Below are positions 5,842-60,831 of a stretch of 64,000 bases of DNA, piece by piece. Both the position numbers and the translations under genes were made by a program. Origin of the DNA: Jimgerdemannia flammicorona (Eukaryota; Mucoromycota; Endogonomycetes; Endogonales; Endogonaceae); the NCBI GenBank assembly GCA_003990745.1, contig RBNI01000005.1, positions 1 through 64,000 of the forward strand, in the 5' to 3' direction. How positions within the stretch are numbered: position 1 is the first letter of the stretch; each line of letters starts with the position of its first letter. Below the pieces are notes generated by a model. That model saw only the letters and a list, made by a program, of their open reading frames with translations. It was not told the origin of the DNA and did not search any database.

Positions 5842-7885
5842 ATGAACAACTCTTACAACAACTACTCTGACTACAAGGGTTACCTCTGCAAGAATTCAAG
5901 ATAAGATAGAAATGTATCCCCCACATTCTATGGATATACTACTGAAGAGTCAATTCTGACCTTCATTAAAGACTTTGAATAATTCACCACCATACAAGCC
6001 CTTGGTGTGGATACACAATTAGCTCTCCTATCTGTCAGCCTCAGAGGACCTACCAGAGACAAGTTTAATACAGCCACTATTGCTGATAATGATGTAGCCA
6101 AACCTGCCAACATGAAGGCCTTTCTCAGAACAATATACTATACTGAAGAGATCAAGCAAGCTCTCAAGAATCAACTCAATACTATCTGCCAGAGACTCAG
6201 TGAAGATCCCAACTCATTCTATATCCAAATCTACTACCAGATTGTCTTGATTAGCTATGATGATGCCCTCAAGGAACAAATAGCAGATTCAACCTTCCTC
6301 AAAGAAGTTTACTCTGAAATTGCCCTAGCAATCTGGTCTACCCCAGCTGCACTGACTCTTGATCAGAAAGTGGTCTTTGCATAGAGATATTGGACTGCCA
6401 GAAACCCTGCTAAACACTCAATAGAGAAAATAACTGACATCAAGATAGAGCCATCAAAGCCAACCAGTATCATACCTACTATAGTTGTAAATAGACAACT
6501 ATTCCCACCTATCCCCAAGACAGCCAAAGCTGACCCAGTGGAGGAACTTGTCAAGCAGTTCACCAAGATGACTGCATACCTTGGTGATGTTATTAGAGAA
6601 GTCCTAAGTACCAACAGGAGACCAGTATAGAGATTTGTAGCTACTACAGAAGAATGCAATATCACATGCTTCAGATGTGGAAAAGAAGGCTACTATGCAA
6701 AGAATTGCATGACTGAAACAAGATGTAAAGCCCAACTAAGCAATGCTAGCAGAACCAGAGAACAAACTAATGCAGTAGTCATCGAGGAGATTGGTGACAC
6801 TGATGATGAAGAATACTATAAGGAGCTCAAATTCTACCCTACTACTGAAGGTACCAGAACCCAGTCCAAGCCCTATGACAAGAAGAGCAACAGCAAGCCA
6901 GTTGGAAGACCAAAGAAGACTCCAGCTATTACTATTCAAAGCAAGACCCAACTCAAGGAGATTGATCAAGACATGGAGTTAGATGAAGCTGCTCATCAAA
7001 TCATTGAAGGTACTACTCCAGTCTCAGGAGAAAGTGAAAGCAAGAAGGAACAGAAGCTGTACCAGACCAAGATCCACCAGTATGATATCTATAAGGACCT
7101 CAAGGAACAGAAGGTCAATGCTACTTTTGGACAGCTAGCCAAAGTCCCTGCCTTCAGACAGCAGTTGAGAGTAGGACTTATAACTACTACCAAGAATCAA
7201 GAGTACAAGATTATAGAAGCTCACAATGCATAAGAAGATGATCAAGAAGACTCAGGCGAAGAATCCAAAGACCAGTACAAGACATCAGCCTATACCCTAT
7301 GTCAGATTGAAGATTGTATCTTTGATGCCATTATTGATACCAGTGCTGAAGGATGCCTCATAAGCAAGAAGGCAATTGACCACCTAGGCTGGGACATTGA
7401 AGAGTCTACCAAGATAGTCTATGTTACAGCAGATGGTACATGAGCTACCCCTCTTGGCAAAATCTGAGAAGTCCCCATCAAGATAGGAGGAGCTACCATC
7501 CCAGTAGATGTTATTATTACAAGTGCCACCAACTATGACATCCTCATTGGCAATCAATGGCTTTATAAGACTAAGACTATTATTGATCTCAATGCCTAGA
7601 AGATGTAGATTAACTATAGAGGAAGAAAGGTACAAGTCTCTATCAATGTCCATAAAGGAGTTCTATCTGATATAGAGAAAGGAGATGAAGAGGACACAGA
7701 AGTCTTTATGCACTTGGTGAACAAGTACAAGAACAAGACACCCAAGCTCACAGATGAGCAGTGGTACAACAAAATCATCAATGGCTATACCCCTCAAGGA
7801 AGATGCCCCCATAGTACTAGAATGTACTGCTCTGAACACCTGAATGACTGCTGGTCCTATATCAGTGAAGTTAGGAAATCCACCA
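5842..7885 (+). pseudogene. Gag-protease region of element A
   Basis: One frame runs from ATG 5842 to about 7885 with stops (for example 6382 TAG, 7231 TAA, 7441 TGA). The Gag capsid part is best preserved at 6007-6384. A CCHC zinc knuckle at 6667-6708 reads CFRCGKEGYYAKNC, with Tyr in place of the usual His (CAT to TAT). After a charged Lys/Glu-rich spacer comes the aspartic protease: the active-site motif at 7336 reads DTSA instead of D-S/T-G-A, and the flap/strand motif ILIGNQWL lies near 7540. The downstream domains continue in another frame (shift of -1) from about 7890. Whether that is a programmed frameshift or a later indel cannot be told; I saw no canonical slippery heptamer in frame. 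Confidence 0.85.
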
Positions 7886-7892
7886 ACAGAAA

Positions 7893-8414
7893 TATGAGCA
7901 AGAAGCTGCTGAAGCAAAAAGGAAAGTCAAAGAAGATGACCAGCTCCCAGAGCTGCAAGCTGACAGCAATGATGAGGAGGAATAAGAACCAGACATCACC
8001 CTCAAGGTCAAGAAGTTTTACTCTGAAGCTAAGATCCCAGAATATAAGACTGAAGGAGTCATAAGAATGGACCTTGCCAGTATTCAAGATACTACCCTTG
8101 AACCACAGACCACCACTCTACTTGGTACTGGAATTGGAGTCAAGCTACCAGAGAACTATGCTGGAATTATCAAGACCAGGAGCAGTCTGACCAAAAGTGA
8201 AATCTCAGTTGAAGGAGAAGTAATTAACCCTGATTACACTGGCAAGATCTTCCTCATAGTCAGAAATCACAACTCCACCACTCCATTCAAAGTCAAGAAG
8301 CATGACAGGATTGGCCAGATGCTGATTTATGAAATCAAGAAGCCCAAGATCATTGAAGCCATTGAACTTATCAAGACCAAGAGAGAAGAACAAGGCTTTA
8401 GATCTACTGGAAGA
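7893..8414 (+). pseudogene. Retroelement dUTPase domain (element A)
   Basis: All five motifs of the trimeric dUTPase family (dUTP to dUMP plus pyrophosphate) are present in order. Motif 1 is MDLASIQD (8067). Motif 2 is TRSSL (8175-8189). Motif 3 is GEVINPDYTG (about 8214-8243). Motif 4 is HDRIGQ (8301). Motif 5 is GFRSTGR (8394-8414). Spacing equals that of cellular dUTPases. In motif 3 the Asp that normally contacts the deoxyribose and catalytic water is Asn (codon at 8226), while the uracil-stacking Tyr is kept. One upstream stop at 7983 interrupts the linker, but 8067-8681 is open and runs straight into RT. The domain lies between protease and RT, unlike beta-retroviruses (before or with protease) and some lentiviruses (between RNase H and integrase). 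Confidence 0.9.
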
Positions 8415-9900
8415 GGAGCCTATGCTGCCACCAAGATTACCAAACTTGAGCATAAGAAAGACAAGGACCAGAATAAGCACACATATACTATTGAAGAAAA
8501 CTTTCCCCTAGAAGAACAACTTCTCAAGATCCTATACCAGAATGAAGAAGTACTTACTACAGACTTCAGGGATATCCACAATCAAGAACTCAAGTACTAT
8601 CATGAAGTTGACACTGGTAATACTAAGCCCATCTACCAGAAAGCCAGACCTATACTACCTGCCTACAGAGAATGGCTGTGAGCAGAACTCAAGGAAATTA
8701 AAGAAGCTAGAATCATCAAGCAAGCTATCAGTCCCTGGGCTTCACCCATTGTCCTCACCCTGAAGAAAGGAAGCAAGCCTGGAGAGTTTGTGCCAAGACT
8801 CTGCATTGACTACAAGAAGCTCAATACAATCACCAAAAAGGATAGGCAGTCTTTGCCAAACATTCAAGAAATCCTTACTACTCTTGAAAGTAAAGCCAAA
8901 TACTACACCACCTTGGATCTGTTCTCAGGCTTCCATCAGATTGGTCTCACTCAAGATGCTAGTGAGAAATCAGCCTTCATCATATCTGATACCACCTATA
9001 TCTACCTGTGAATGCCATTTGAAATGTGCAATGCTCTAGCAAGTTTTCAGTGAATGATAAACAGAGTCTTCAGCAATGAGATTGGAAAATGGCTCTTTGT
9101 CTATGTTGATAATGTGATCATCTTCAGTAACACTGCATGGGAACATATCAATCACATACAGCTAGCTCTCAAGAAGCTCAAGGAGCATGGCCTCTATATC
9201 AAGCCTAAGAAGTATAAGTTTGCAGCTCAGGAAATTGCCTACCTAGGACACCTCATCAATCAGACCAGAATCCACACAGACCTAATGAAGATTGAGGCTA
9301 TTGCAGCCTACCTGAGATCCAGAACAACTATAGAAGTCCATGCCTTCCTTGAACTGGCCAGCTACTACAGAAGATTCATCAAAGGATACTCCAATATTGC
9401 AGTACCTATCTATGAGCTACTGAAGAAGGAAACCAAATTTGAATGGACCAAGAAATGCCAAGAAACCTTCAATAAACTCAAGACCAGATTGACCCAAGCA
9501 CCTATCCTCAGAAGACCAGATTGGAATCTAGAATTCATCTTGTAGATAGATACAAGCACTATAGGACTTGGAGCAGTCCTAGTTCAGAAGAAAGATGGAC
9601 ATGAATATATCATCTCCTATGTAAGCTAAGGTACCCATGGAGTAGAACAGAACTATGAGTCATGCAAGCTTGAATGCTTGGCAGTAGTTTGAGCAGTAGA
9701 CAAGTTCCACTACTATCTAGTCAGGAAACACTTTACTATTCAAACAGACCATTCTGCTCTTGCCTGATTATTCCATACTCTGAACCCCAAAGGAATATAT
9801 ACCAGATGGATCTACAGGCTGTAAGAGTATAACTGTACTATCAAGCACTACTCAGAAAGAACCAACACCAATGCTGATGCACTCTCAAGGACACTCTGAA
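8415..9900 (+). pseudogene. Reverse transcriptase-RNase H (element A)
   Basis: Same frame as the dUTPase. The RT palm motifs are clear: RLCIDYKKLN (8800), DLFSGFHQI (8917), MPFEMCNA after a TGA (9012), and the catalytic box reads YVDN (9102-9113) instead of YVDD. The thumb reads ILRRPDW near 9520. RNase H follows after a TAG: the four carboxylates in IDTS, CKLECLAVV, TDHSAL and NADALSR are all still there. Stops of all three types occur, many at positions where Trp, Gln or Arg is expected, so the enzyme is dead in this copy. Confidence 0.92.
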
Positions 9901-9989
9901 ATACCCCCATCAAGACTATTCAATATAAATAAGGAGTTATACTATGGATTAATCAGCTATCTTAGACAGCAGAAGATGCCCAACCACCT

Positions 9990-11137
9990 CAAACCCTGGA
10001 CTATCAACATCATCAACTAGACTTGGAAACAGTTTGAACTAGACAACACTACACTCAGAAAAGGAGGAAAGCTAGTAATACCCAAATATAAGAAGTATCA
10101 AGTAATGAAGGAAGTACATGAGCAAGGACATCTAGGAGAAACTAACACATATGATAAGGTAAGAAGAACCATGTGGTGGCCCAAAATGGAAGAAGACCTG
10201 TGCCAATTTGTCAAAGGGTATGACAAGTGTCAAAAACAGAAATAAAATCAGCAAGACCAGGCATCTGAGTCATCAAGAATTGAGCCTATCCCCTTCTACC
10301 ACATTGCAATGGATATCATTGGGCCACTACCAGTAACACTATCAGGAAAATACTATATTATAGTTATTGTAGATCTCTTTACTAAATAGATAGAAGCAGG
10401 ATCATTACAAGAAGCCAATGCCCTTTCTATAGCTGACTTTCTGCATCGAGAAATCATCTGTCACTATAAGATACTGAAGCAAATCACAACAGACCATGGC
10501 ACAGAATTTGTCAATAGATTCTATAAGATAATATATCAGAAATACAAGATTCAGTACATCAAGACCACCATGTACTACTTTCAAGGAAATAGATAGACAG
10601 AGAGAACCACCAAGACTCTCAAGAATATTCTGGTGAAGATCTCAGACACATATAAGAATTGGGACAACTATCTCCCAACTGCTCTCTCTATCCTATAAGA
10701 TATATAGTCACAGAGCACACACTTTACCCCAAGAGAACTGCTCTTTGGAGAAGAAGATTCTAATGGAACCTCAGCTGCAAATCTAGACTTAACTTGGAGA
10801 TAGGTTGACTTGGAAATCTGGAGACTACACCAAATCAGAAAGAAGGCTAAAGATTACATCATCAAGTCACAAGTGCTGATAAGGAAGAATGTAGAAAAGA
10901 ATCACAAGACCCTAGAACTCATCCAAATCAGAGAAAAGTTCCTACTATATTGAAATATGGTAGAGGCCTCATAGTTATGAAAACTGGAGCCCAAATAGGA
11001 AGGACCCTTCTATATGCAAGATATCAAGAGAACTACCTTTTAGCTTAGAAAAATCTCAGAGACCATATTGCCACCTACAGTATATAGGAACAACTCAAGA
11101 AGTACTATGAACCTATATAAGAGAAGCAAAATGTAAT
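9990..11137 (+). pseudogene. Integrase (element A)
   Basis: In a different frame from RT, after an indel near 9990. The HHCC zinc-binding N-terminus is readable (VHEQGHLG, then CQFVKGYDKC at about 10110-10230). The DDE core follows: MDIIGPLP (10309), TTDHGTEF (10489) and the Glu in the TERTTKTLK stretch near 10600. A GPF motif (EGPFYMQDI, near 11000) marks the C-terminal GPY/F module. No chromodomain was recognised. Several stops interrupt the reading. Confidence 0.88.
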
Positions 11138-11474
11138 GACCACCTGCAAGATTCTAGTCTGCGAATCATAACAGTATGTCCCATGACCAGCAGGCTATCT
11201 GTCTGGACCATTCTCTAAGAGATATAGTATCAGCAACTACTCATCTATAAGACTTTTGAAGCCAGAGGAGTTTGAACTGTCAACTGATTGGTCAAGATCA
11301 GAATCAGGCCCTTGCTCTATATAAAGGAAGTGATCCTTCACTATCATACCAAAATATATAGGAAAGATGCCAGCCTATAAATACTACTTTTTGACCCCTT
11401 ACCAGAGGTTATGGGATTAGCAAATTTTTCAGAACTGGACCAATGAATAAGGATGCTCAAGAAGATCCTTATTC

Positions 11475-11484
11475 AGGAGGAAGA
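11475..11484 (+). promoter_or_regulatory. Polypurine tract
   Basis: Ten purines (AGGAGGAAGA) immediately before the 3' LTR start at 11485, the expected site of plus-strand priming. Confidence 0.7.
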
Positions 11485-13037
11485 TGTAACAGTGACTCCA
11501 GAATGATGATATCAGTACAGAAGACAGCCTTTCCTTACAAGCCACCAGATCAGAGCACAAGAAGATCATATGGCATAAAAGATGAGCAATGATGACTAAC
11601 TGTGAGTCATTATGACCACAGTATGGATATCTTGAGAAATATAAAAAAAGAATCAAGAAACTGCAGTAGCAGCAACCAACAAGACCCACCAATCCCAAAA
11701 TAGCTCAAAGACTTACCACAAATAAAATGCCTGCTGTTTGTCAAACCTCAAGGTCAAGGAATTACCAAGACATCTCAGTTGAAGAAAGGATATTTCAAGA
11801 CATCAGAAGAGCTATGAGGACCTACACAAGAAGGACTCCTAGTGTCAACCTGGATACTAGTGACCTTTATCATTATATCCTCTACTACTGTGAAATAGAA
11901 ATAAGGATCAATATTGCTACTGAATGTCTCCAAATGTGGTAGGAGTATGAAATAAGAAATCTCCTCTGCTAGGAGTTCCCACAGGCCAGCCCCCAGGAGT
12001 TACAAGATGCTACTCCCATGGATATATGTGAAGCAAGGATAGCTAAGAAGATCCATCAGATCTTTAGGCATGCACCATGGTCGATCCCCAACTTAGAGTA
12101 TGTTAGAGTCTCAGACTTCAGAGACCTGTCTGCCCACCGTATCAATACACTAGAAGCCAGAGTGGCTACAGAAGCCCAGTCCACTATCACTCTCAATAGT
12201 GATGAAGTAGAAGACTTCTGGTATTCCATCCTACAGAACAACCCAGACCAATTCCTGCAAGGATTGATCTCAGTATTCTAAGGCCCAAACATTCAGGTTA
12301 GACTCTCCAAGACTCCACATTTGTTTTCTATTTTGTGGAAGAGAATTTCATAGATTGGAGAGCTCCCAATTTCTCTACCAAACATAATGACATTATCAGC
12401 AATAATGTCATCCTGTATGACATATGCAAAATACATAACCTATGTGATGAGATGGATAAGACATTCATAAATCTCATCTCTTTTGAAGACATCCTGACCT
12501 CTGATGAGAATGAAGCCCCTATGGTCTTAAACATTCTGCTCTAAGTCTCTTGATTATACTGAATAATGCCAGCACTCTTTTTCTGTGTAATAGCTATTCC
12601 ACTACTGGCATTCTGATGTGACTCAGAATTATTTCAGTGCTATTTTCCTATATTACTGAAATTATACTAGTATCCTGAACCTATGCAACCATCAGTGCCG
12701 ACACTGGAACTTAGCAGTTTTTTCTATCCCAGAATTTTGTTTTAGTTATTGGAATTTATATTTAGCTTTATATCTTAGCAACTATTGAATTATATTTTGT
12801 ATAAATACCCCTCTTATTTCCTTTGGAATAAAGTCAGTTCCAGTTCACTTACACATAATCTCTTACAAGCAATCTAAGAGATAACAAGACAGTTTAAAGA
12901 TAAGAAGTTTGAGGACTATAAGACCTTGAGAAGACACTCCAATAAGAACTTGCTTATAACAAACTTGAGTTAGTCTAAGAGATACACCTTGAAGAGAATC
13001 TGATGTATTTGAAGGACTCAGCAATCACTACATGACA
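11485..13037 (+). repeat. 3' LTR of element A
   Basis: Direct repeat of 4235-5785, with TGTAACAG at the start and TGACA at the end. It carries TATAAATA at 12800-12807 and AATAAA at 12827-12832 like the 5' copy. Confidence 0.9.
11727..12544 (+). pseudogene. U3-encoded ORF, 3' LTR copy
   Basis: Same protein as 4472-5292. Here the open stretches are 11727-11942, 12018-12281 and 12335-12544; the first two are in one frame separated by TAG stops, and the third is shifted by a one-base deletion near 12305 relative to the 5' copy. The best preserved part (12018-12281) has no stop in 87 codons. No known domain was recognised; DNA- or protein-binding roles are guesses. Confidence 0.6.
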
Positions 13038-13041
13038 ATAC
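13038..13041. repeat. Target-site duplication of element A, right
   Basis: ATAC following the 3' LTR, matching 4231-4234. Confidence 0.75.
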
Positions 13042-13990
13042 ATATAAGAATAGCTCCTAGTCTAATTTAGCTTATATCTATCTGTAAGATGAACTCTTAA
13101 AACTAGTCAGATCTTCTCAAGATGAGTATTTGGGTCAAACAGATCTTGAGATATTCAAATGCTTATTATTACCTATTAGTCCATTGGAATTTAGTATTTT
13201 TTTTAAATAATTTATAGATAGGGCTTGCAATGTTGAAGAATCTTTTAATCAACCTCCTGTAATAGATATCAAGTCTTATGAAGGCTTGAGCTTCAGTAAC
13301 TGTAGTGGGTCTTGGATAGACTTCAACTACTTGAATCTTAATAGAGTTTATATAGATTCTATTTTAATTGATAATATATCTCAGATAAAAGATCTTGATT
13401 ATACTGACTTATACTTCTTTAGCTTGATAAATAGATCATAATCTCTTAGTTTTGAAGAGATTCAGTAAATATGATTCAGATATTTCTTGACTGTCTTCTA
13501 GTAAATAACTATATTATCTATATAGACCATTATCTATTTTTCTATATCTTTTTGAAAGATCTTATTTAACATTCTTTGGAAACTTACTAAAGTATTGTAC
13601 ATTCTAAATAATATTCACAGATAGACATAGGTTCTATCTGGGATGATAAAAACTGACTTTTCTCTAGTAAGGCTGATTTGATAGAATTCTGAGTATAAAT
13701 CCAATATAGTATTATTGTATTTTATCTTCTAATATTATCAAGATGTTACTGATGAAGGGTAGTAGTTGGTAATTCTTCTTGGTGACTTCTTTTAGATTTC
13801 TGTAGTCTGTCCAGAGCCTTGGAGTAAATTCTCCTAACTTACTTTCTTTTTTTGAGACTAGTACAATTGGTGAAGACCAGGGGCTGATGGTCTCCTTAAT
13901 GATACTGACTTCTTCTATCTGCTTGATTTCCTTCCTGAGCTATTCATAATATGCTAGTGAGATTGGTCTTATCTTTTAATAGATTGGCTT
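13038..13990 (-). pseudogene. Gypsy element B, reverse transcriptase (decayed)
   Basis: Minus-strand reading shows the RT start (ISPWSSPIVL near 13890, then PRLWTDYRNL near 13810) and, after long decay, the thumb (KFQWT, LILRRSD near 13100-13180). It ends at the start of RNase H and continues at 4234 downwards. C-to-T and G-to-A type decay has removed most GC from the sequence. Confidence 0.8.
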
Positions 13991-14169
13991 AGTGTCTTCT
14001 ATATCTATATATATTATAATAATAGTATAGTATCTTTCTTTTGATATTCTTGAAATCAGTAGCAAGAATATTCTCAAATTTATGCAATAGCTTCTTGAGT
14101 TCCTTTTTGAATAAAAATTCATTTTCTATAGTATAGCTATGCTTGTCAATAATTTTCTCCTTTTTGTGG

Positions 14170-14645
14170 TCTAATTTAATAATCTTGGTACTGATGAAAA
14201 CTCCTCTTTCTGTAGATCCAAATCCTCTTCTTTCTCTTTCTATTTCCTCCAGCTTCTTGACTTTTAAAATCTTGAGTTATACATAGCATCAGAAAGATCA
14301 GTATTTATACAAATTAATTCTTTTTCTTAACTGCAAATAGAATTATAAGATTGTAGTTTCTGGTGATAAATAAGATTTCTATAATATAATTAAAATTGAT
14401 GACTCCTCCTTCAATTAAAATTTCACTCTTGGCTAGACTGCTTCTTATCTTAAGTACTTTAACATAGTCCTTGGGAATAGTTATTTCTAGTTCAGTTATA
14501 AGTAGAGTTATTGTCTGAGATTTGAGAATTATCTCCTTAACTATAGTAATATCTATTTCTACTGTATTTTCTGACTTATATTCTGGTAGAACTATATCAA
14601 GATAAATACTCTGAATCTTGATCTTAATTTTCTCTTTATCATCAC
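14170..14645 (-). pseudogene. dUTPase domain of element B (second copy)
   Basis: Upstream of the RT of element B on the same strand, dUTPase motif 2 (IRSSLAKSEI, about 14430-14450), motif 3 (GGVINFNY, 14386-14409) and motif 5 (GFGSTERG, 14202-14226) are readable in the expected order and spacing, although motif 4 is lost to frameshift and stop. The first motif-3 position is Asn, as in element A. The domain is therefore a regular part of this family. Confidence 0.78.
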
Positions 14646-14765
14646 TATCTTCTAGAAGGGCTGGCAGTTCATCCTCTTAGTCTTCCTTTTCTTACTACTT
14701 TTGTATTCTTTTCTTCTCTTTATAATGAATTTTGTAGATCTTAGTAATATATTGTTAGTACTTAT

Positions 14766-15921
14766 CTATTGTAATGATACTTTCAAAACTAGTGATATCA
14801 GAATACAGAATACTGCCCAGACTTTACAAGTTACCAGTTACCAATTATAACTCAACTATGACTTATCTTATCTATAAGATGATCTGCATCTGAACTCATA
14901 ATGACTCATAATGACCCCAGTAGTATACTACTCTAAATCAGATAACTCTACTCTCTAAATTAAAGAAAAAGATCCTTAAAATATAAAAGAAGCAATAAGA
15001 AGAAAATTATAAAACATTAAATAGAAGTCTTATCATGAAAACAAAATGCATACTATTTGCCAAACAGTAAGATCAAGGAGCCATCTAGACCCATTAGTTC
15101 AAGAATAAATATTCACTAATATCAAGAGGACTATGAGATTATATATAAGAAAGACCTTAAGTCTAAATCTCTATACAAGAGATCTCTACCACTATACCCT
15201 CAACTGCCATGAAATAGAGATAAGAATCACTACTACTACTGAGTGTCTTTAGATGTAATAAGAATCTGAAAAGAGATATTACCTCTACTAAGAATTCTCA
15301 CAAGCCAGCTCTCCAGAAATTGCAGATACTACTTACATAGATAGATATGAATAAAAATTGTCATCAGATATTTAGACATATACCCTGGGTCATTCTCAAT
15401 CTGAAACATGTCAAAGTCTCTGATATTCAAGAACTGACAAGCTGCTGTATAGACTATCTTAAAGAAATAATTACAGAAGAAGCCCAATCTACCATTATAG
15501 TTAAGAGTGATGAGATTTAAGACCTTTGGAACTCTATCCTAGAGGACAATCCAGACCAATTCATTCATAGTTTGATTGTAATATTTCAAGACCCTTCCTT
15601 GAGAGTTTGCTTCTCTCAGAATTCTACAGATGTTCCCTACTTTATGACATAACTATTGACTGGAGACCTCAAGAGCAGAATGACTACATGCCCTTTGATG
15701 ACATCATCAGCAATGACATCACCTCCCAAAACAACTTAGAGAATAATGGCAACCCACTTATTTTGCTGGAAGACAACATCAACAACTTCCTAGGGGAGCC
15801 TGCAGGCTTCCTTTCCTCACCCCCAGAGCCCCCCACTGACTTCAGCACAATTGTGGAGGATGCAGAAAATAATTTGGCCAGACCCCCTGAAGAGGAGGAT
15901 GAGGATGACATAATCCCCTGA
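14766..15921 (+). repeat. Diverged LTR (C) of the element A family, truncated
   Basis: Aligns by eye with the first 1.1 kb of the element A LTRs: GATATCAG plus ACAGAA near 14790, the GACTCATAATGAC block near 14910, AATATAAAAG near 14980, and the ATG of the U3 ORF at 15046. It stops abruptly at about 15921, where GC-richer element D begins, so the LTR is cut there. The left limit is approximate. Confidence 0.6.
15046..15921 (+). pseudogene. U3-encoded ORF, diverged copy C
   Basis: Starts ATGCATACTATTTGCC, matching the start of the U3 ORF in element A, then decays with many stops. The last 105 codons (15607-15921) are open and look coding: an IDWR plus DDIISN stretch aligned with element A, followed by an acidic, Pro-rich tail ending EEEDEDDIIP that the element A copies lack. 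End and start are in the same frame. Function unknown. Confidence 0.5.
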
Positions 15922-16094
15922 ACAAGTACGTTACCGCGGTCAACAATGCCAACAATGCAAGCAGCGCCACCAGCAAATTATGCCATTATCATCCGGATTC
16001 TTCCAGTTTCTGACGACCAACAGCGATCCCAACCAAGTTCAGATCCCAACCATCACCAATGCAAGCAGCAATCTAGTACGCGACCCAGTAGCCG

Positions 16095-17262
16095 ATGAAT
16101 ATGGACACCAGTGCAATCGATGGCCCTCTCCCGAAATACGCCCACCACCAAACGACGTCAAGTAACACGAGTAGCAGTGGTATCAACCATGAACCCATGG
16201 ATTTCTCCGCCCTAATCGGAGTCATCGCGCAGAGTATGCAGCAAATGAACCAACTCTCGCATCAGATCGCTAATTCCCTCGGCAACATCAGTAATGGCCC
16301 GCAAAAGGAAGTTAAGAACATCACCGCAAATGACAACTCTGCACTTTCAGTGGTAATGGAGCCGAGTTCCAGACATATTTCTCGACCGTCGAAACCGCGA
16401 TCACAGCCAAGACCTGCAAGGGTTCCAGTGCCGCTAAAGGACCAAGATTCAACGCGTCCGAAAGTATCATCGCCTATGGTTCTTCGCTCGATAAGTTTGT
16501 CGTCAAAAGCAAAGCCATCGTAAATGCCACCGCCTCCAGATTCACAGGAAATGTCGAGCTGATGGCCAGCAAGGGGCTCAGGGAAATGCTCTAAGAATGT
16601 TTCTGGTCGTCCCAGTTCATCAGCGAAGCCTTTGCAAAAGTCCGATCAATGAAATACGTACCCAGTACATAGTCAAATGAAGAATTCGTGGCGGTACTCG
16701 AAGGGTACATGATTACAATCGGAATGGGATACGCCCATGGGAATGCAGCTAGAAATCGATTCCACAGGCAATACTTGTTGGATATGCTCCCTGAGCAACC
16801 AGCCATGATCATAAAAGCCGAACAAGTCCCGGCTTCATGTATTCCAACGCAAGGAAAATAGCGATGGCTGTTTCAATTGTACCTTAGGGTAGGTCCATCG
16901 TATAATGCAAGCATATTCGAATAAGCAGAACAGCTCAGATTCCAACAGGCTTTCGGAGGCACAAGTATCAGACTCAAGGCAAATAGCAACAACAACGACT
17001 ACACGCACACCGACAACACATCAGCTAAACGAAGAAGAAATACGAGACCACAACGAACGGCTCGATGATTTCAGTCCCGAAAATTGGGAACAAACGGCAT
17101 CATGGAACAGCGACCCAGCTTCAGCGATCACATACACAGCTAGACAATCGCGGAAGCTGTAGCACTTGCTACAATTGTGGAAAACTAGGTCATTTCGCCG
17201 GAGAATGCCGCAGCCCGGACCAACAAAATAATAATGAGTTCATGCAACGAAATGGACCATGA
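16095..17262 (+). pseudogene. Gag-like protein of element D
   Basis: A Gag-type protein read in two frames. An N-terminal Ser/Thr/Asn-rich part with a Met/Gln-rich helix lies at 16190-16300. After a frame change near 16350 a capsid-like part follows (16345-16860) with TAA at 16591 and TAG at 16671. A Thr-rich linker comes next, then the CCHC zinc knuckle CYNCGKLGHFAGEC near 17168-17210. The knuckle is complete. Frameshifts and stops show that it is broken. It is probably from another gypsy lineage than elements A and B. Confidence 0.55.
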
Positions 17263-31670: not shown

Positions 31671-33907
31671 TTAATTGGCCCTGGACGACCCCCCTAGGTC
31701 GGGCGTAACAGAATCATTTATCTGGTCGTACGAGGGCGGTAGATCGGGTAGTTGTTCGACGACGGCGCTCGGGTTCTTGGAAGGGTCCCACGCCGGCATC
31801 TGCAAGTTGTTGTAGAATGTGTTATGCGTAGTGACTTCCGGAGACTGCATGTTATCTCGGATTGTTTTGACCATATTGTAAAACTTAGTGTGGAGTTCGT
31901 TTGTTTCATCGATGTTGTTGAGGCGGTTGCGTAGGCTGGTTGGGGTTAGAGGAGATGTGGGGATGAGGTGAATTGGGTAGAGAATGGGAGAGTGGGAACA
32001 AAATACAATGGGAAGAAAAGAGGCTTACCCATTGGCTTCCACGCGACGGAGCGTGTCTCCGGAGCCAACACCTTCGAATAGTGACTGGTTGCCAATGTTG
32101 TTACTGATCCTCTGTGACTCATTGGTGAGCTTTATCAGCGGCTGGTTAGGACAGTCGGAGCGAATAAATGTGAGCGATGATATTTTCCAGAGGTGATGCA
32201 ACATACAGTGAGCAGTAAATCCATACCTTGACTGCGGCATTTGCCAGAGCAACAACGGTCATAATCACGATACCCAACACAAATAAAAAGCACGCGATCG
32301 AACTCGCCGCATAAATCGTAAACGTATGATTCATATCCGCGTTGACAATGTCAATGGGCTCATTAATCTCCGACAACGGAAACGCTGCAACAGACACGTA
32401 TGACGGCTTCTCGCCTGTCATTCCATTGGTCAGGTTCAGCATTTGCCACACGACAAGGTAAGACACCAATGTGGTCGGGTCCTTGTAGACTTGCGAAGAC
32501 GCTTGATCCCCTGAAGAGGAGACAATCTGGTTCCAGAGTGCGTTGGAGATGACAGGTTTTGACGAGTCACTGTACAGGAAGGGACGATCCTTCGTGCTAG
32601 CATTTGAACTCCAGGAGACCAGGTCCCAGGTAGGGTTAGCAATCGCGACGCCGTTGAGCCGGTAGAGGGAGGTTTGGCTACCGTTCACGGCAAGACGCTC
32701 CAGATTGGATTTGAGCGTGCCGATAAGGAGATCGATGCCGGCCACGCCGAGCTGGAGTTCCGCGGGTATGTGTAAGGTCGGTGGCGGGACATGAGCACAG
32801 TAAAAAAAGCTTAGTAGTCCATCGGGGGTAAATTTCTCGAAAATTTCCAATGAAGGGGTCCAGTATACTTACGATATTTCCTGTAGCGGTGTTAGTAATA
32901 ACAGCGCTAATAGACACACACCACCCCCTCCCCGAAGCATCACTATACGGGTCCGTAATAATGTATGACGGGCCAGCGGGCGAGGAGGCGTACGTCTTTG
33001 CAGTCGTGTACCACGGGCGGATGGTGGGATCGTACGCGCCTTGGTTGCGGATCAGGCCGGCACCGGGGTAGTGGCGGAAGAGCAAGGCATCGAAGCCGAC
33101 AAACAAGGCGAGTAAATTCGGGTTCTGCGTGTACATGGTTCGAAAGAGGTGGTCCACGTGTGCGCTATTACTAATCACAGTCTGTTGCTCGGCCGTGAGT
33201 GTGGTGGGAGGGTCCGAGCCAGTGTAATTGCTAGGCATCCAGGTCGAGTGGAACAGGCTGATTGGGAGGCCGGCATAGCTAGGGAGTTGTAAGTGAGTAA
33301 GTAATGATATTGCAATTTGGGGGGTCTTTTACGAGTGAGCGTGTAAGCGTGTGAGCATGTGAAAACTTACCGTTCCCCAGTTTGGGGAATCGTCTGACCT
33401 GCTGCTTGGATGCCTGCTAAATTGTCAAAAAAGCTAAAAATTGGGCAACGTCGAAGTTCAGTAGAGTGTTATCGCTTGTATTAAACTATGCCAATTTTTC
33501 ATTTGGCAGACGCATTACCTAGGTTCGGCGCTCAAAGGTTGATCCGTCCTGAATGTGTCCCCCGTCGCTTGGGCGATGGGTAATACGACCGACTCGGCAA
33601 TCCTTTTCAGGCTGTCTTCGAATAAAACTCCCGAGTGGGTCACGGAATCGGCCAGATTTTGTGTAATCTGGCTTGTCTGGAATTTTGTTAGAATTTCGTG
33701 GGTGTCATCAGTGCGAGAAGGGGGGCAGATGAAAATTAAGTGATATCATACCAGAATGTCTGTCGAAGTATCTTTGATGTTGTGAATGACGGCCCATAGG
33801 AAGAGAATACATATGAGCTCGACGAGGGTGAGAGATATGAAGACGCTAGAGCTGAAAGTTATCAGCATCTGTTTCTTGAGCGAGTATGAGCGCCAGTTTG
33901 CAAACAT
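31671..33907 (-). CDS. Short Cache-HAMP membrane receptor-like protein (561 aa)
   Basis: Seven exons (33907-33752, 33676-33519, 33433-33371, 33278-32873, 32751-32227, 32141-32029, 31935-31671) joined by consensus introns of 75-121 nt give one uninterrupted 561-aa frame. A first membrane helix (about residues 15-40) is followed by an extracellular domain with the Cache signature RPWYTTAK near residue 211, then TDPYSDASGRG and GVAGIDLLIGTL. A second helix lies at about 403-428, and a HAMP-like segment begins KPLIKLTNE. The short cytoplasmic tail ends with LPPSYDQ near residue 540, a PPxY motif of the kind bound by WW domains of Nedd4/Rsp5 ligases. There is no kinase or other output domain. Architecture matches ligand-binding dCache sensors known mainly from bacterial chemoreceptors. 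The ligand is unknown. It is divergent to the long paralogue at 34604. Confidence 0.85.
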
Positions 33908-34603
33908 CTTGTCTCAGAGGTCAATGATTGTGACTCGACAAGGCTGCTGTTGATGGGGAAGAAATAACGAAAACAGGAGGATATTATAGGTGGCGCGAAG
34001 GAAGGGGGCCGGTGCCCGTGTTTATGTGTGCAGTGACGCTGTCCCCGTCACCTGTTCCCTGAGCGCGTGTGTTTTTATCCACAAACTGTCAACGATAGAA
34101 AATTGAATTTCTATTGGAAACCTATTTTTAGACCGGGTCACCCATCTTGGAAGGCAGCGATGGAATTTGACGTGAAATTCTAGATAGAAGACTTCGGGTC
34201 ACTCACTTGCTTGCCACCATAGCTCTTCCACTAGGACGATCACAAAGTTAATCAAGTGAGCTCTGAATTTTTTACGCGTGGATTCCAAAGAGAAATAGAT
34301 TCGTGCACATGACACGAAAACGGAATTCCACGAACTTTGCTTGGAATAGCTTCAAACCCTATCTTAATGAAGACCTCCGATCCCGTCGACTCAATGGGGA
34401 AAACATATAAAGTTTATTAAAAAGTACCTTATGACCTATCTGAATTGGTACCTTTTTAAAAATTTCATCTCATAAATTATGTCGAGCGCCACACCTGACC
34501 CTCTTATCAGACGGACGAACAATTTCCCGGTGCTGCGGTTCGGGCTCCATAAATGGCCTAAACTTCATCGAAACATTCCCCACCAAAACACTACATCTCA
34601 ATC
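33908..34603. promoter_or_regulatory. Shared intergenic region of the divergent Cache genes
   Basis: 696 bases between the two start codons. A TATA-like CTATAATAT (minus strand, 33981-33989) lies about 75-80 bases before the short gene's ATG. For the long gene only a weak CCATAAATGG (about 34546-34555) is seen. The arrangement allows co-regulation, but that is inference. Confidence 0.45.
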
Positions 34604-37600
34604 ATGAAACTGACGAACCACATTATCCTTCGGTACATACAATGCATTGAATGCCTGTCTTGTATCATGCGGAAAACAACTTATCGAGTCAAACTTTCGC
34701 CACCATTTCAGCCTGGTGGTGCCTCTCACTCTCGGCATGCTCATCCTCGGCCTCGGCATGGTCGTCGTCATCTACAAACAGTCAAACGATTGGACGTCGG
34801 CCATCCAGGACATCATTCAGAATGCCGAGATTAATGCATTCAAGAGTATTTCCGTCAGCCGCGCAGCAATCGTCCAAGCCATCACTAATGAGTTCCTTTA
34901 CGACAACATCTTGGCCTCCACATACGCCATCGAGCTATTTCGGTCGGACTTGTCAAATGAGCTGCCGCTTAATGTTACCAAGTAAGTGTATTCGAATGCG
35001 GGTTTTCAGACGGTTTGCACAATATTAGAAATTGCAATTGTAAATGGTATTTACGTTTATCCTCGTCCATAAGGCCGTACGCATCCTACTTTTCCACAAA
35101 GATCGACAGCCCGCCCGTTGACCCTCCGAGACCGTCGGGAAACCAGGAAAGGTTGTATTCGGCGTATTTCAGCGTTAACGTCACCACCACCGCCCAGCTC
35201 AATACTCCTACGGACACTCAATCCCGCTCCACCGTCTTGGACAATGTGATGCGAGCCCTGGCCATTAGCAAGGTATTTCAACACCACCTTTATTAGGGCT
35301 TTATCAACTCCTACTTTACAATCGCCTAACCCAGCCCTTTTCAACCCCAGCCCTCCATCGAAGCGGTTTACGCGGGCTTCTCCGACTTCGGCTTCCGACG
35401 CTACCCCTACGTCTTTGACGATACCCGCCGTACCCAGACCTTCTGTAATGAGTCCTACGTCCCGGCCGAGCTGCAGGGGAAAATAGGCTTTATTCCGGCG
35501 TGCCGCTCTTGGTATCAGACGGCACTCATGTCCGCTTCTACGGTGGGCGTCGTCGATGCCCTAGGGCCCGCCCAGTTCTCGGCGCCGTTCATCAGCGCCG
35601 TCACGAACCGCGTCGTTACTACCACATCTCAGGCGTTCTTTACACAGGAGGGGCTCAAAGGCGTTATTGCTATTGAAATGGAAATGGAGGAATTAAATAG
35701 CACGTTGACCAAGTCATTTGTGTTGCCGCATGGGTATATGTTTATGATGGATCTGAACGGAGTCCTTATCATATAGTAAGTAGTCATTTTTCATGCAGTA
35801 TTTCAAGCCATGAACCCGTGACTAGACTTATAATGTATCATTATATTTATTTTCACCAAGTCCGACAGTAGATAGCGCCGGCAAGCCCATCGACATTTAC
35901 GCGAAACCGACCACCCTTGCGACCGCCGAATTCGCCGGCGACGCTCAACAAGGCGCGGCCTTCCTCGCCCTCGTCAAAAATCTCGCAGCAAGTGGTCTCT
36001 CTGACGTCTACACGAAATCCGGCGCCGAATGGCGTGTGGCTGCCGCTCCGATCAATGGCACGGATTTCATTGTCTGCCTCACCGTACCCTCATCAGAAAT
36101 TGTAGCACTGAGCATTCAGATGCGCACTCGAACGACCATTTTTAGTGGCGCCGCTGCTGCCCTTGTTTTCGTATTCTTGTTAGTCCTCACTTACATCGCT
36201 TACTGGATATGTCGAAAGACAGCGGAGCGCATCTTGGCTCCTATTGCGGAGTTGAATGACTGGCTTACTCGCATGTGTCAGGCGGATTTGGCAGTAGAAC
36301 TTGGGGAAAGGGAGCCCGTGTCGGCCGAGCTTAATATCATACATGAGCATTTTAAAAATCTGCTTATTGCTGGTAGGTTTGAAAGCTTAACTAGACCTTT
36401 TCTGTTTGTGAGTGCAACGGTTTAGGTTGCTAATGTGAATTTCCACAACCTATTTCAGTTCGGTTCGGCAACCAAGCCTACTACGCCGGAGACCTCGACC
36501 GAGCGTTGGCGAACGTACGTCTCCACTTGTAGCCACTGTTTATTTCCTCGATGCCAATTGGCCTAATAATTTTCTCGTTCCTGCACGTAGTACGAGGCAG
36601 CCGAAAGGATGATGGTCCAGTTTCGCAACGAGCGAGGCCGCGGTGTCTGCCTTAACAACAAAGGCAACGCGTTAAAGCAAATGGGCAACCGCTTCAACGA
36701 GGCCCTGGACATGTACAACCTTGCGATTCAAAATGGTAAGTTCGCCATTCATTCTGTCTCGCACCGCTATGATTGACACTCGAATAACACGCATTTCATG
36801 TTCATGCGCAGCCGAAAGTCTCGCAAACCTCGAGAAGGACCCTAGCCGCAAGGCGGCCTATGAGATTGTACTCGCTAACCGGCTCATGAATCTCGGGGTT
36901 CTTTACAAAGAATATGAGCCACAGTCCGACGCAAATCAGGCGAATGCTGAGCAGCATCTGCAGAGGTCCCTCAACTTGCACCGTAAGAACGATAGCGTCG
37001 AGGGCATCGCGCAGGTGTCGGGTAACTTGGGCCAACTTTACATGGATACTGGGCGGGCTGCCGAGGCAGCCACCCTGATCACTGACGCATACGAGACTGT
37101 CAAGAAGAGGGGAAATCATGTTAGCATCCAGTACGCGGCGATGAATATGGGCATGTTGGCCGATCGGAATGAGAAGCCGGAAGAGGCTGTGGCGTGGTAT
37201 ACCTGTGAGTAGTTTCTTCCTGCTTTTAAACAATCTTTTTCTCATTTGGGGGTCTTTCATTGATGACTCTCGCTCATCCGTTTCACAGACGTTCTCCAGC
37301 GTTACGACACCATTGTTGCCTACGTGCAGCGCTTCTGTGTTGAAGAAGTCATCCGCATTTGCGAATCTCCTTCTTTTAACCGCCCTGCCCTTGCCGTCTC
37401 GGTCCGCGAAGTCGGTGAGCCTCTCTTCGGCCGCGGTCTCGAGATGTCCTCGACTGCGAAGGACGTCGCGTTCGTGCTCGATTGCTCGGGATCCATGGCT
37501 GGCTCGTACATTAGGGCGTGCCGCCAGAGCCTGACAGATATCATCTCTAAGTACACTTTCCCCGGTGACCGGTTGAGCTTGACCACGTTCCAACACAGGA

Positions 37601-38143
37601 TGCAAGTGGTTTGGTCTCTTCAACCAAGAGACGAGACGATGATGATCAATTTAGTGCAGACTAGAACACAGACTGATGGAGCTACCGCGTTCTGTAAGAT
37701 TATTTCTTTCAACATCGCCGCTTTTCTTCATCTTGGTGATCATTGACCAATTTAACACGCTTGTACTCTCTTGTTCATCAGGGGACGCCCTACTACATGC
37801 CATTCGGACCCTGGAATCCGCGCCCTCCGAGTCGTCATCCAAGCCCACCTTTGGGTCAGCTCGTGCGCTTTGGGTCGTCGCTCTCACAGATGGCTACGAC
37901 AACTCCTCAAGTCCCACCGCGCGGAACAATGTTCAGTCGGTACTCCGAAGCAGTGGCCGCATCTCTCTGCTGGCCATTACGGTCGGCAACTTAGAAAACG
38001 AGGGAGAAATTATACAAGCTTGCCAAGCAAGCCGAAACGGGGGCTTGCATATTAAAGCCAAATCTAACGCCGATGCCATCAAAGAGGCGTTTGGGAGGGT
38101 CGCTAGGGTCATGACCGGTGACTTGAAAGTCGAAGCTCTGTAG
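34604..38143 (+). CDS. Long Cache-HAMP-TPR-vWA membrane receptor-like protein (931 aa)
   Basis: Ten exons (34604-34632, 34712-34981, 35074-35272, 35351-35775, 35861-36372, 36459-36514, 36591-36735, 36812-37204, 37289-37693, 37782-38143) splice into one open frame of 931 aa. Order of parts: short cytoplasmic N-terminus; helix at about 11-29 (VVPLTLGMLILGLGMVVVI); extracellular Cache-type domain, including CRSWYQTA near residue 217; helix at about 394-418; HAMP-like linker (ILAPIAELNDWL); TPR-type helical repeats at about 478-700 (GNALKQMGNRFNEALDMY, NLGQLYMDTGRAAEA); and a vWA domain from about 734 to the end. The vWA MIDAS is complete: DCSGS at 741, Thr in DGATAFWDAL, Asp in ALTDGYDN. ATG at 34604 is chosen because splicing of a 79-nt intron joins it directly to the first helix. 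Likely a receptor whose cytoplasmic part binds partner proteins through TPR and metal-dependent vWA contacts. Confidence 0.88.
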
Positions 38144-59336: not shown

Positions 59337-60831
59337 TCAGCCTCGATGATCTTTTATCCGATACTTGCATCCTCCACGTAAGGAGACAGCCGGGTACACC
59401 TTGTCAGGGAGATTTCTCCAGGCTGTCCCGTGATTGAATCCGTTGATCGAAAGGGCACAGGTATGATCATTTAGGTTTAAATGAAAGGTTATGAGATCGC
59501 CATTTCTAATTACTTCGCCGTAATTGTGACGATTATGTCCAACCATCGTACGTTTGTTACCTTCCCAAGATTGGAAAATCCATGCGGATGTCTGAAATTC
59601 CATAAGACTATCAAAACGTGCGAATTTCTCTCCAACTAACCCAATCTCACAGACGCTTTGCGATCCAATGGATTCAACGACAATGTCCCATTTGCATAGA
59701 TCGTTGTGAATCTTTGTCCCAGGAACGGAAATTCGTGCTGTCTGTCCTAAAACACCCAATGGAAGCTCCGCAACCTGGCCATCTTCCGAAACGATCACTT
59801 GAGAACCGACTTTTGATCGATCCCACTGGAGACTGGCGTTGTGACGCGTCTTTCCGCGACTTGTGGACGGATGACCTGTAGGGCATACGGTGTTCTTGCA
59901 GGCGTGGTGACAAAACGCCATGTAGTGTGGAGAGGTTCCCGCAAACGTGTCGACTGCCTCCGCAAGGATCTTTAGTCGATGTGGACAGACGAGCGTGAGG
60001 TCAAAGTGGTTCATCATTTTGAGTAGCAAGGCGCACGACGCACCATCTCCTAGCTGGATCGTGCTGTCGCACCCCGCAACCATATCGTTGATGTTATGGA
60101 GAACAGCACGGCGCTCCGAAGCCGACGGCGCCCTCTCGTTACGTCCCCAAACCCAGTCGACGACACATAGCAACAGGTCGTGCTCAGGCGTGGAAAGGGT
60201 CACTGCCTCGGTGAGGAGCAGCTCGAGGGCCTCTTCGGAAAGGTCGGTCAGTTCGCCGATGGCGAGCTTGTGAGCGCGAAAGGGGTTAAGGAGTATGTCG
60301 TAGAGGTCCTTGTTGGCTTCGCTCCAAGGGATAGCGGCGACGGCTTCGTTGAGAAGCGATGAGGCCACACCAAAATCGGCGAGGTCGTGCGCATGATCCA
60401 GTACCATTTTCATGAGTTTTGGGAGGAGGAGAAAATTTGCTGCACGGTACATTCCTACCGCGATGGAAATGTCAACAGTATTGCCAATAGTTTCTGTGTG
60501 AATGAATCCGAGGACAATGTTGAGCACCGTTGAGGTGATATCGTTGAGAACGACGCGTTGAGAGGAACCCTCTCGCATGTTTCCATACAGCATCGCCTTG
60601 AAAACTTGGCATCTTTTAAGAGATCATATGAAATCAGGAGTGTGGAAAGCGTATGAAAAACGACGAAAAAACTAAACTGTTAAATCGGACAAACCTTGAA
60701 GCCAGTACGGCACGGCATGCGCCCAGCTCGACACCGTCGGCGCAGACGATGGTGACATCGTGGTAGGTTGGGTCCTTCCAGATGGAGACAATATCGTCCT
60801 TGAGGCAAATACCGCTTTCGACCATGTCCAT
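59337..60831 (-). CDS. BTB-BACK-SPRY domain protein (470 aa)
   Basis: Two exons (60831-60695 and 60612-59337) with an 82-nt intron (GTTTGT...TTAAAAG) that joins LAS-R to CQVFKAMLYG, the conserved middle of a BTB/POZ fold. BTB covers about residues 15-110 (starting DPTYHDVTIVCADG). A helical BACK-like part follows (NEAVAAIPWSEANKDLYDIL, then TPEHDLLLCVVDWVWG). The C-terminal third resembles SPRY/B30.2 (GDLITFHLNLNDHTCALSIN, then GTAWRNLPDKVYPAVSLRGG). Such proteins usually act as substrate adaptors of cullin-3 ubiquitin ligases: BTB binds the cullin and SPRY binds the substrate. The frame is uninterrupted. ATG 60831 is the first Met in frame with the BTB start. Confidence 0.85.

Follow-up and report, generated by a model that had tools for sequence, protein, structure and literature searches.

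A predicted dCache-HAMP receptor with a TPR-vWA output in Jimgerdemannia flammicorona and its relatives in early fungi

Results

Gene Structure of the Locus

The window analysed here is a stretch of 64,000 nucleotides of contig RBNI01000005.1 from Jimgerdemannia flammicorona, and contains a dCache-HAMP-TPR-vWA receptor gene on the forward strand at 34604..38143. Splice reconstruction of this interval gave ten exons (34604-34632, 34712-34981, 35074-35272, 35351-35775, 35861-36372, 36459-36514, 36591-36735, 36812-37204, 37289-37693 and 37782-38143) with GT..AG borders at all nine introns, encoding 931 amino acids and a stop codon. An alternative first donor would give 939 amino acids. The first-pass annotation had described one spliced 931-residue frame in ten exons, and the same frame was recovered by the splice model; a paralog on contig C364 with an identical exon set and full-length relatives from other records also support the gene.

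On the reverse strand, a short dCache-HAMP-like gene was modelled at 31671..33907. It comprises seven exons (33907-33752, 33676-33519, 33433-33371, 33278-32873, 32751-32227, 32141-32029 and 31935-31671) and encodes 561 amino acids in the order TM-dCache-TM-HAMP-tail; the stretch 33433-33371 was taken as an exon since its inclusion preserves the frame. An intergenic stretch of 696 bp (33908..34603) lies between the start codons of the two divergent genes. The earlier account of the locus had found the receptor, but had missed this head-to-head short-receptor neighbour. Elsewhere in the window, a retroelement remnant is present at 7986-9542 (+), with a dUTPase domain (E = 5e-23) in one frame and a reverse transcriptase (E = 3e-10) in another, and a 427-residue open reading frame encoding BTB and SPRY domains lies at 59343-60623 (-).

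The source genome (135 Mb, 7754 contigs) was searched for copies, and further receptor copies were found by protein search on contigs C364, C3145 and C6289. A Pfam dCache_1 search of this genome gave no match, although the protein search detects receptor copies there. The C364 paralog has an open frame and keeps the ten exons with every splice dinucleotide. It clusters with the window receptor in the gene tree, which gives the pair no firm position among the other fungal rows. The two copies are separated by a single 6-nt exon indel, by gaps in eight of the nine introns and, across 931 codons, by 98, 70 and 186 differences at the first, second and third codon positions. The receptor gene is under purifying selection, with a dN/dS between these copies of 0.26 by NG86 (dN 0.087, dS 0.335) and 0.34 by YN00 (dN 0.095, dS 0.281). 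When expressed by part, the ratio was 0.10 for the TPR, 0.17 for TM2-HAMP, 0.19 for the vWA, 0.23 for TM1 and 0.46 for the Cache domain. The Cache domain is thus the least and the predicted intracellular parts are the most constrained, which fits a fixed output served by a sensor that diversifies. The source genome has further vWA matches on contigs C379, C1748, C1835, C6825 and C2756, in open frames of 346-701 amino acids.

Domain Organisation of the Receptor

The transmembrane segments were taken from hydropathy peaks, with helix bounds that were set by us and are approximate. TM helix 1 (34713..34775; residues ~11-31) corresponds to a long N-terminal helix in the predicted model of a relative from Polyrhizophydium (P0001). 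It is followed by a dCache sensor, predicted to be extracellular (34776..36122, introns included; residues ~32-395) and containing a CRSWY stretch at residues 217-221 (from 35501), and by TM helix 2 (36126..36194; residues ~397-419). A HAMP linker (36207..36368; residues ~424-477) leads into a TPR solenoid (36369..37395, introns included; residues ~478-712), and intron 5 lies at residue 478, at the border between the two. The C-terminal vWA domain is predicted to be cytoplasmic (37456..38122, intron included; residues ~733-925). All of these features lie on the forward strand.

Pfam dCache_1 matched the window protein at residues 234-380 (E = 8e-6) with 26 bits against a curated cut-off of 45 bits, and is therefore sub-threshold; the cut-off was passed by three of the eight relatives scanned (P0005, P0008 and P0010). 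A single-sequence search with the window protein gave E = 3e-4 for a solved chemoreceptor sensor and E = 0.0015 for alpha2delta-1. A family profile built on ten relatives matched solved chemoreceptor sensors at E = 5e-16 (6iop) and E = 1e-13 (PctA), and also matched alpha2delta-1 (E = 6e-19, in two stretches) and CACHD1. By profile, and by fold in the P0001 model, the domain is homologous to the dCache domains of solved sensors.

No Pfam HAMP match was present in the window protein, and a weak match of this type was seen in one of the eight relatives scanned (Gonapodya, E = 0.03). The HAMP yardstick consisted of 28 bacterial HAMPs, retained from 30 returned loci after two below the cut-off were dropped. 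In hhalign, the corresponding segment of a 13-row family alignment, lying between TM2 and the output, matched this set at 96% (E = 2e-9 for one comparison), while six control segments reached at most 0.7%, and the segment is accordingly assigned to HAMP by profile match.

The output part was matched by Pfam TPR_12 (E = 1e-11), with structural matches of the P0001 model and the exon map in agreement, and by Pfam VWA at residues 735-913 (E = 1e-16). The MIDAS is formed by DCSGS from residue 741 (37480), the threonine in GATAF at residues 807-811 (37678) and LTDG at residues 846-849 (37883). Its residues (D-S-S, T, D-G) are complete in all 13 aligned sequences, consistent with a vWA domain carrying a MIDAS. 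Neither a histidine kinase domain nor an MCP signalling domain was matched by Pfam in the window protein up to E = 1, and no receiver domain was matched by Pfam. The first-pass annotation had claimed a chemoreceptor-like TM-dCache-TM-HAMP order, a C-terminal TPR-vWA part with a complete MIDAS and the absence of a kinase. The layout was borne out by hydropathy, by profile and fold searches and by hhalign, with both Cache and HAMP detected in the profile comparisons that it had proposed as a check; the other two claims agree with the Pfam results. In 12 of the 13 sequences the C-terminus reads V-E-x-L (38119-38143 in the window). This ending resembles a PDZ-ligand-type tail, or else may be a conserved last strand.

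A structural model was predicted for P0001, and not for the window protein, and has a pTM of 0.38, so that the placement of its domains is not fixed. Its best Foldseek match was 9a69, the full-length McpB/McpC chemoreceptor (E = 1e-13 over 779 columns), which is itself an integrative model. The whole structures superposed poorly (rmsd 70; TM-score by query, 0.23), and VIA-align superposed 296 residues at an rmsd of 6.9. Foldseek also matched the PscC, Mlp37 and PctA sensors, and the TPR part matched the TPRs of LGN and KLC1.

All 13 rows of the alignment carry a positive net charge after TM2. Before TM1 the same holds for 12 of 13, the remaining row being without that part, and after TM1 for four of 13. 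In the part predicted to lie outside, the density of sequons is only 1.7-fold higher. From the charge pattern, which gives mixed support, we infer a topology with the dCache outside and the vWA inside the cell.

Relatives of the Receptor

The first-pass annotation had suggested a search for the same domain order across fungi. The search made here returned at least ten relatives from other records that carry both halves in this order. Nine cover 98-100% of the query; P0009 covers 54% in its best BLAST piece, yet aligns along its length. Seven are from named fungi, namely Polyrhizophydium (P0001, 49%), Phlyctochytrium bullatum, Gonapodya, Zopfochytrium, Siphonaria (two) and Obelidium, and three (P0008-P0010) are from records without an organism name. 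The two Siphonaria proteins are labelled UNVERIFIED_CONTAM in the source name. Polyrhizophydium, P. bullatum, Zopfochytrium and Obelidium belong to the Chytridiomycota, and Gonapodya to the Monoblepharomycota. In an additional relative from Phlyctochytrium planicorne (P0011), the N-terminal part is absent. Each receptor search scored approximately 8000 candidates, and the counts of relatives are lower bounds. A second search, built on the alignment of the first ten proteins, listed nine, and recovered one of its ten inputs (P0001); besides P0001 and P0011 it gave seven partial TPR or sensor matches (E = 9e-21 to 1e-3), which were not used. The 13-row family alignment includes the window protein, the C364 copy, P0001 and P0008-P0011. 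Judged by its sequence relatives, the receptor is a member of a family present in several early fungi, and not a lone oddity.

Members of the Chytridiomycota and Monoblepharomycota make zoospores, and the Endogonales are not known to be zoosporic; with the receptor present in the latter, the family would extend beyond zoospore-forming fungi. The flagellar family IFT46 had no match in the window's genome, and none in the control genomes either. No receptor relative was present among 170 pattern matches in viral contigs, none of 55 plasmid records searched with P0010 covered 80% of the query, and ncbifam gave no match near the cut-off. In padloc, P0001 and P0010 matched a TPR model only. A bacterial origin of the whole architecture found no support among the matches listed: the loci of the contig scan (at least 80) cover only query residues 680-927, which represent the vWA and, in one locus, also the end of the TPR.

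The Divergent Neighbour

The short neighbour gene was matched by Pfam MCP-like_PDC_1 at E = 3e-5, with a sub-threshold 25 bits against 27, and by neither dCache_1 nor HAMP. Matches to solved chemoreceptor sensors started from E = 4e-6, and the HAMP match taken by itself was moderate (78%). Among the matches listed, the neighbour has three relatives (P0019-P0021), of which two, at 65% and 63%, come from Jimgerdemannia flammicorona and one (38%) from Irineochytrium. A four-row short-receptor profile aligned to the 13-row receptor family over 441 columns, spanning family columns 3-481 of 933 (E = 7e-21), and did not match the TPR-vWA half (0.4%). The match stops near the end of the HAMP; in the window receptor, intron 5 lies at residue 478. 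The neighbour's tail contains PPSY at residues 540-543 (31728-31739, -), with PPGY in Irineochytrium and no such motif in the two Jimgerdemannia models. PPxY is a WW-domain ligand, and the motif hints at ubiquitin-ligase-driven endocytosis of the predicted protein.

The arrangement of the two gene types was compared at the other receptor copies. On C3145, positions 7658-16539 hold a tandem cluster of alternating vWA-receptor (-) and short-receptor (+) stretches, some of them partial. A vWA receptor (-) is followed by a short-receptor piece (+) that matches weakly (32% identity, E = 2e-5) and by a vWA-receptor first half (-); then come the first part of a short receptor (+) and a vWA-receptor end (-). 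Upstream of the vWA copy on C364, a single short-receptor match was found, a C-terminal piece (residues 479-544) on the opposite strand, which sits where the N-terminal end would be expected. No short receptor was found within the 6000 bases searched at C6289.

The Amino-Acid Pocket

The PctA pocket was compared at seven positions, among them D146, which we take to belong to it. The remaining residue numbers (Y121, R126, W128, Y129, Y144 and D173) follow the accessible portion of PMC10104139; in the motif as given in the accessible portion of PMC9901441, the spacing from the first Tyr to the Arg is shorter by one residue. The window and C364 copies read F,R,W,Y,F,S,E against Y,R,W,Y,Y,D,D, and deviate at four of the seven positions. 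The dCache_1AA amino-acid-sensor motif is likewise incomplete in both copies, with F,R,W,Y,F,E at the cited positions. A full PctA-type pocket is present in four of the 13 family rows (P0001, P0008, P0009 and P0010), and in one (P0001) of the seven full-length relatives of named fungi. In Gonapodya the first position alone differs. The last two acidic residues are absent from the remaining chytrid rows, and P0011 is without the first part. With four of seven positions deviant in the window copy and only one of seven named relatives complete, the ligand may differ or may have been lost. The full amino-acid motif is present in the neighbour and in both of its Jimgerdemannia relatives, while the Irineochytrium protein lacks the second half. 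This distribution suggests an amino-acid ligand for a minority of the relatives and for the neighbour, and not for the window copy.

Discussion

What the computation shows for the receptor is its gene structure, the order of its domains, the HAMP, an intact set of MIDAS residues, purifying selection and conservation across a family, and the protein may be described as a dCache-HAMP receptor with an unusual output. We lean towards the view, as moderately probable, that it is a kinase-free transmembrane receptor in which a small ligand outside the cell controls a cytoplasmic TPR-vWA scaffold. The ligand bound by the dCache would be a small molecule from outside the cell and, for at least some members of the family, an amino acid; the signal would travel via TM2 and HAMP into the TPR solenoid and the C-terminal vWA. 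The order of the modules is that of chemoreceptors, which makes a ligand-driven change through TM2 and HAMP the natural reading. The vWA MIDAS would bind a partner protein in a Mg2+-dependent manner, and ligand binding outside would alter the set of cytoplasmic proteins retained at the membrane. The first-pass annotation had likewise proposed that a ligand outside controls metal-dependent protein binding inside. In this scheme, we infer the ligand class, the direction of signalling and the metal-dependent binding of a partner. A broader version, in which amino-acid-sensing dCache-HAMP receptors of early fungi are encoded in divergent pairs, heterodimerise and gate a Mg2+-dependent TPR-vWA output instead of phosphotransfer or G proteins, appears unlikely, the more so because the full pocket occurs in only one of seven named fungal relatives and because what remains of the short receptor on C364 is a C-terminal piece.

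The single frame is a splice model, and the membrane and vWA halves could in principle belong to separate genes. This is extremely improbable given that the C364 paralog has the same ten exons and that ten proteins of other records join both halves in one chain; a two-gene artefact is thus disfavoured by the sequence comparison. A division of labour between the two neighbours, with the short protein sensing through its complete motif and the vWA protein signalling, and the two dimerising through homologous TM-dCache-TM-HAMP modules, is rather doubtful, if somewhat better placed than the broader version above. The divergent pair with 696 bp between its starts, the profile match confined to the sensor half of the family, the alternation on C3145 and the complete motif beside an incomplete one in the window receptor all speak for it, and the arrangement and the shared module would allow a heterodimer. 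However, neighbours can co-duplicate without interacting, the remnant on C364 and the result at C6289 do not show the expected pair, and, among the matches listed, relatives of the neighbour occur in Jimgerdemannia and Irineochytrium and receptor relatives in neither.

An auxiliary subunit of a channel or transporter, resembling alpha2delta with its vWA touching the cytoplasmic side, would account for the two domain types shared with alpha2delta-1, both of them profile-matched, and the alpha2delta-1 MIDAS interacts with the channel according to the accessible portion of PMC9901441. The opposite placement of the vWA, the presence of one dCache rather than two, the HAMP and TPR, which alpha2delta is not known to have, and the lack of a channel link in anything observed for the receptor gene make such a role improbable. 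We give equally little weight to a relic, in which ligand binding was lost in this lineage and the protein merely anchors TPR-vWA constitutively at the membrane. The deviating pocket is common to the window and C364 copies and the Cache dN/dS is the highest of the five parts, both of which speak for a relic; yet that ratio remains below 1, and the pocket retains R, W and Y, with conservative replacements (F, F and E) at three of its four altered positions.

Bacterial dCache MCPs (PctA, Mlp37 and McpB/McpC) share the TM-dCache-TM-HAMP order and a sensor alike in profile and fold, and PctA-type pocket residues recur in part of the family; in contrast, the MCP signalling domain is unmatched here and the output is TPR-vWA. 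LGN/Pins and kinesin light chain are TPR adaptors that, to our knowledge, have neither a sensor nor a vWA; a TPR likeness is common and says little on function. Alpha2delta-1, matched in both domains, and CACHD1, matched in the dCache, also combine vWA and dCache. We know of no HAMP or TPR in alpha2delta. The first-pass annotation had compared the receptor with these proteins as having an extracellular vWA ahead of the Cache. Both domains are indeed present, but in the accessible portion of PMC9901441 the alpha2delta-1 vWA is inserted inside the first of two dCache domains, and not simply before it, in a GPI-anchored protein. An extracellular vWA before or inside the dCache is not found in the window protein, in which the vWA is C-terminal and follows TM2 in the predicted topology.

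Fungal Cache histidine kinases such as Sln1 have an extracellular Cache, according to the accessible portions of PMC4822843 and of PMC6944256, a review of such kinases. The window protein is likewise a fungal protein with a predicted extracellular Cache; however, the kinase and receiver are unmatched in it. As far as its accessible text goes, a 2016 survey limited fungal Cache domains to histidine kinases (PMC4822843). Among the matches listed in the literature search, the titles and the opening lines of the abstracts contained no description of a fungal receptor of this architecture, in line with the first-pass annotation, which knew of none. The receptor is nevertheless not a lone type, with family members in the Chytridiomycota, the Monoblepharomycota and the unnamed records.

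The family thus places a sensor-HAMP module on a kinase-free, protein-binding output in two fungal phyla and in the window's fungus. If amino-acid sensing is true, these receptors would provide a case of a HAMP module that drives a TPR-vWA output, and would be candidates for nutrient or host sensing in fungi.
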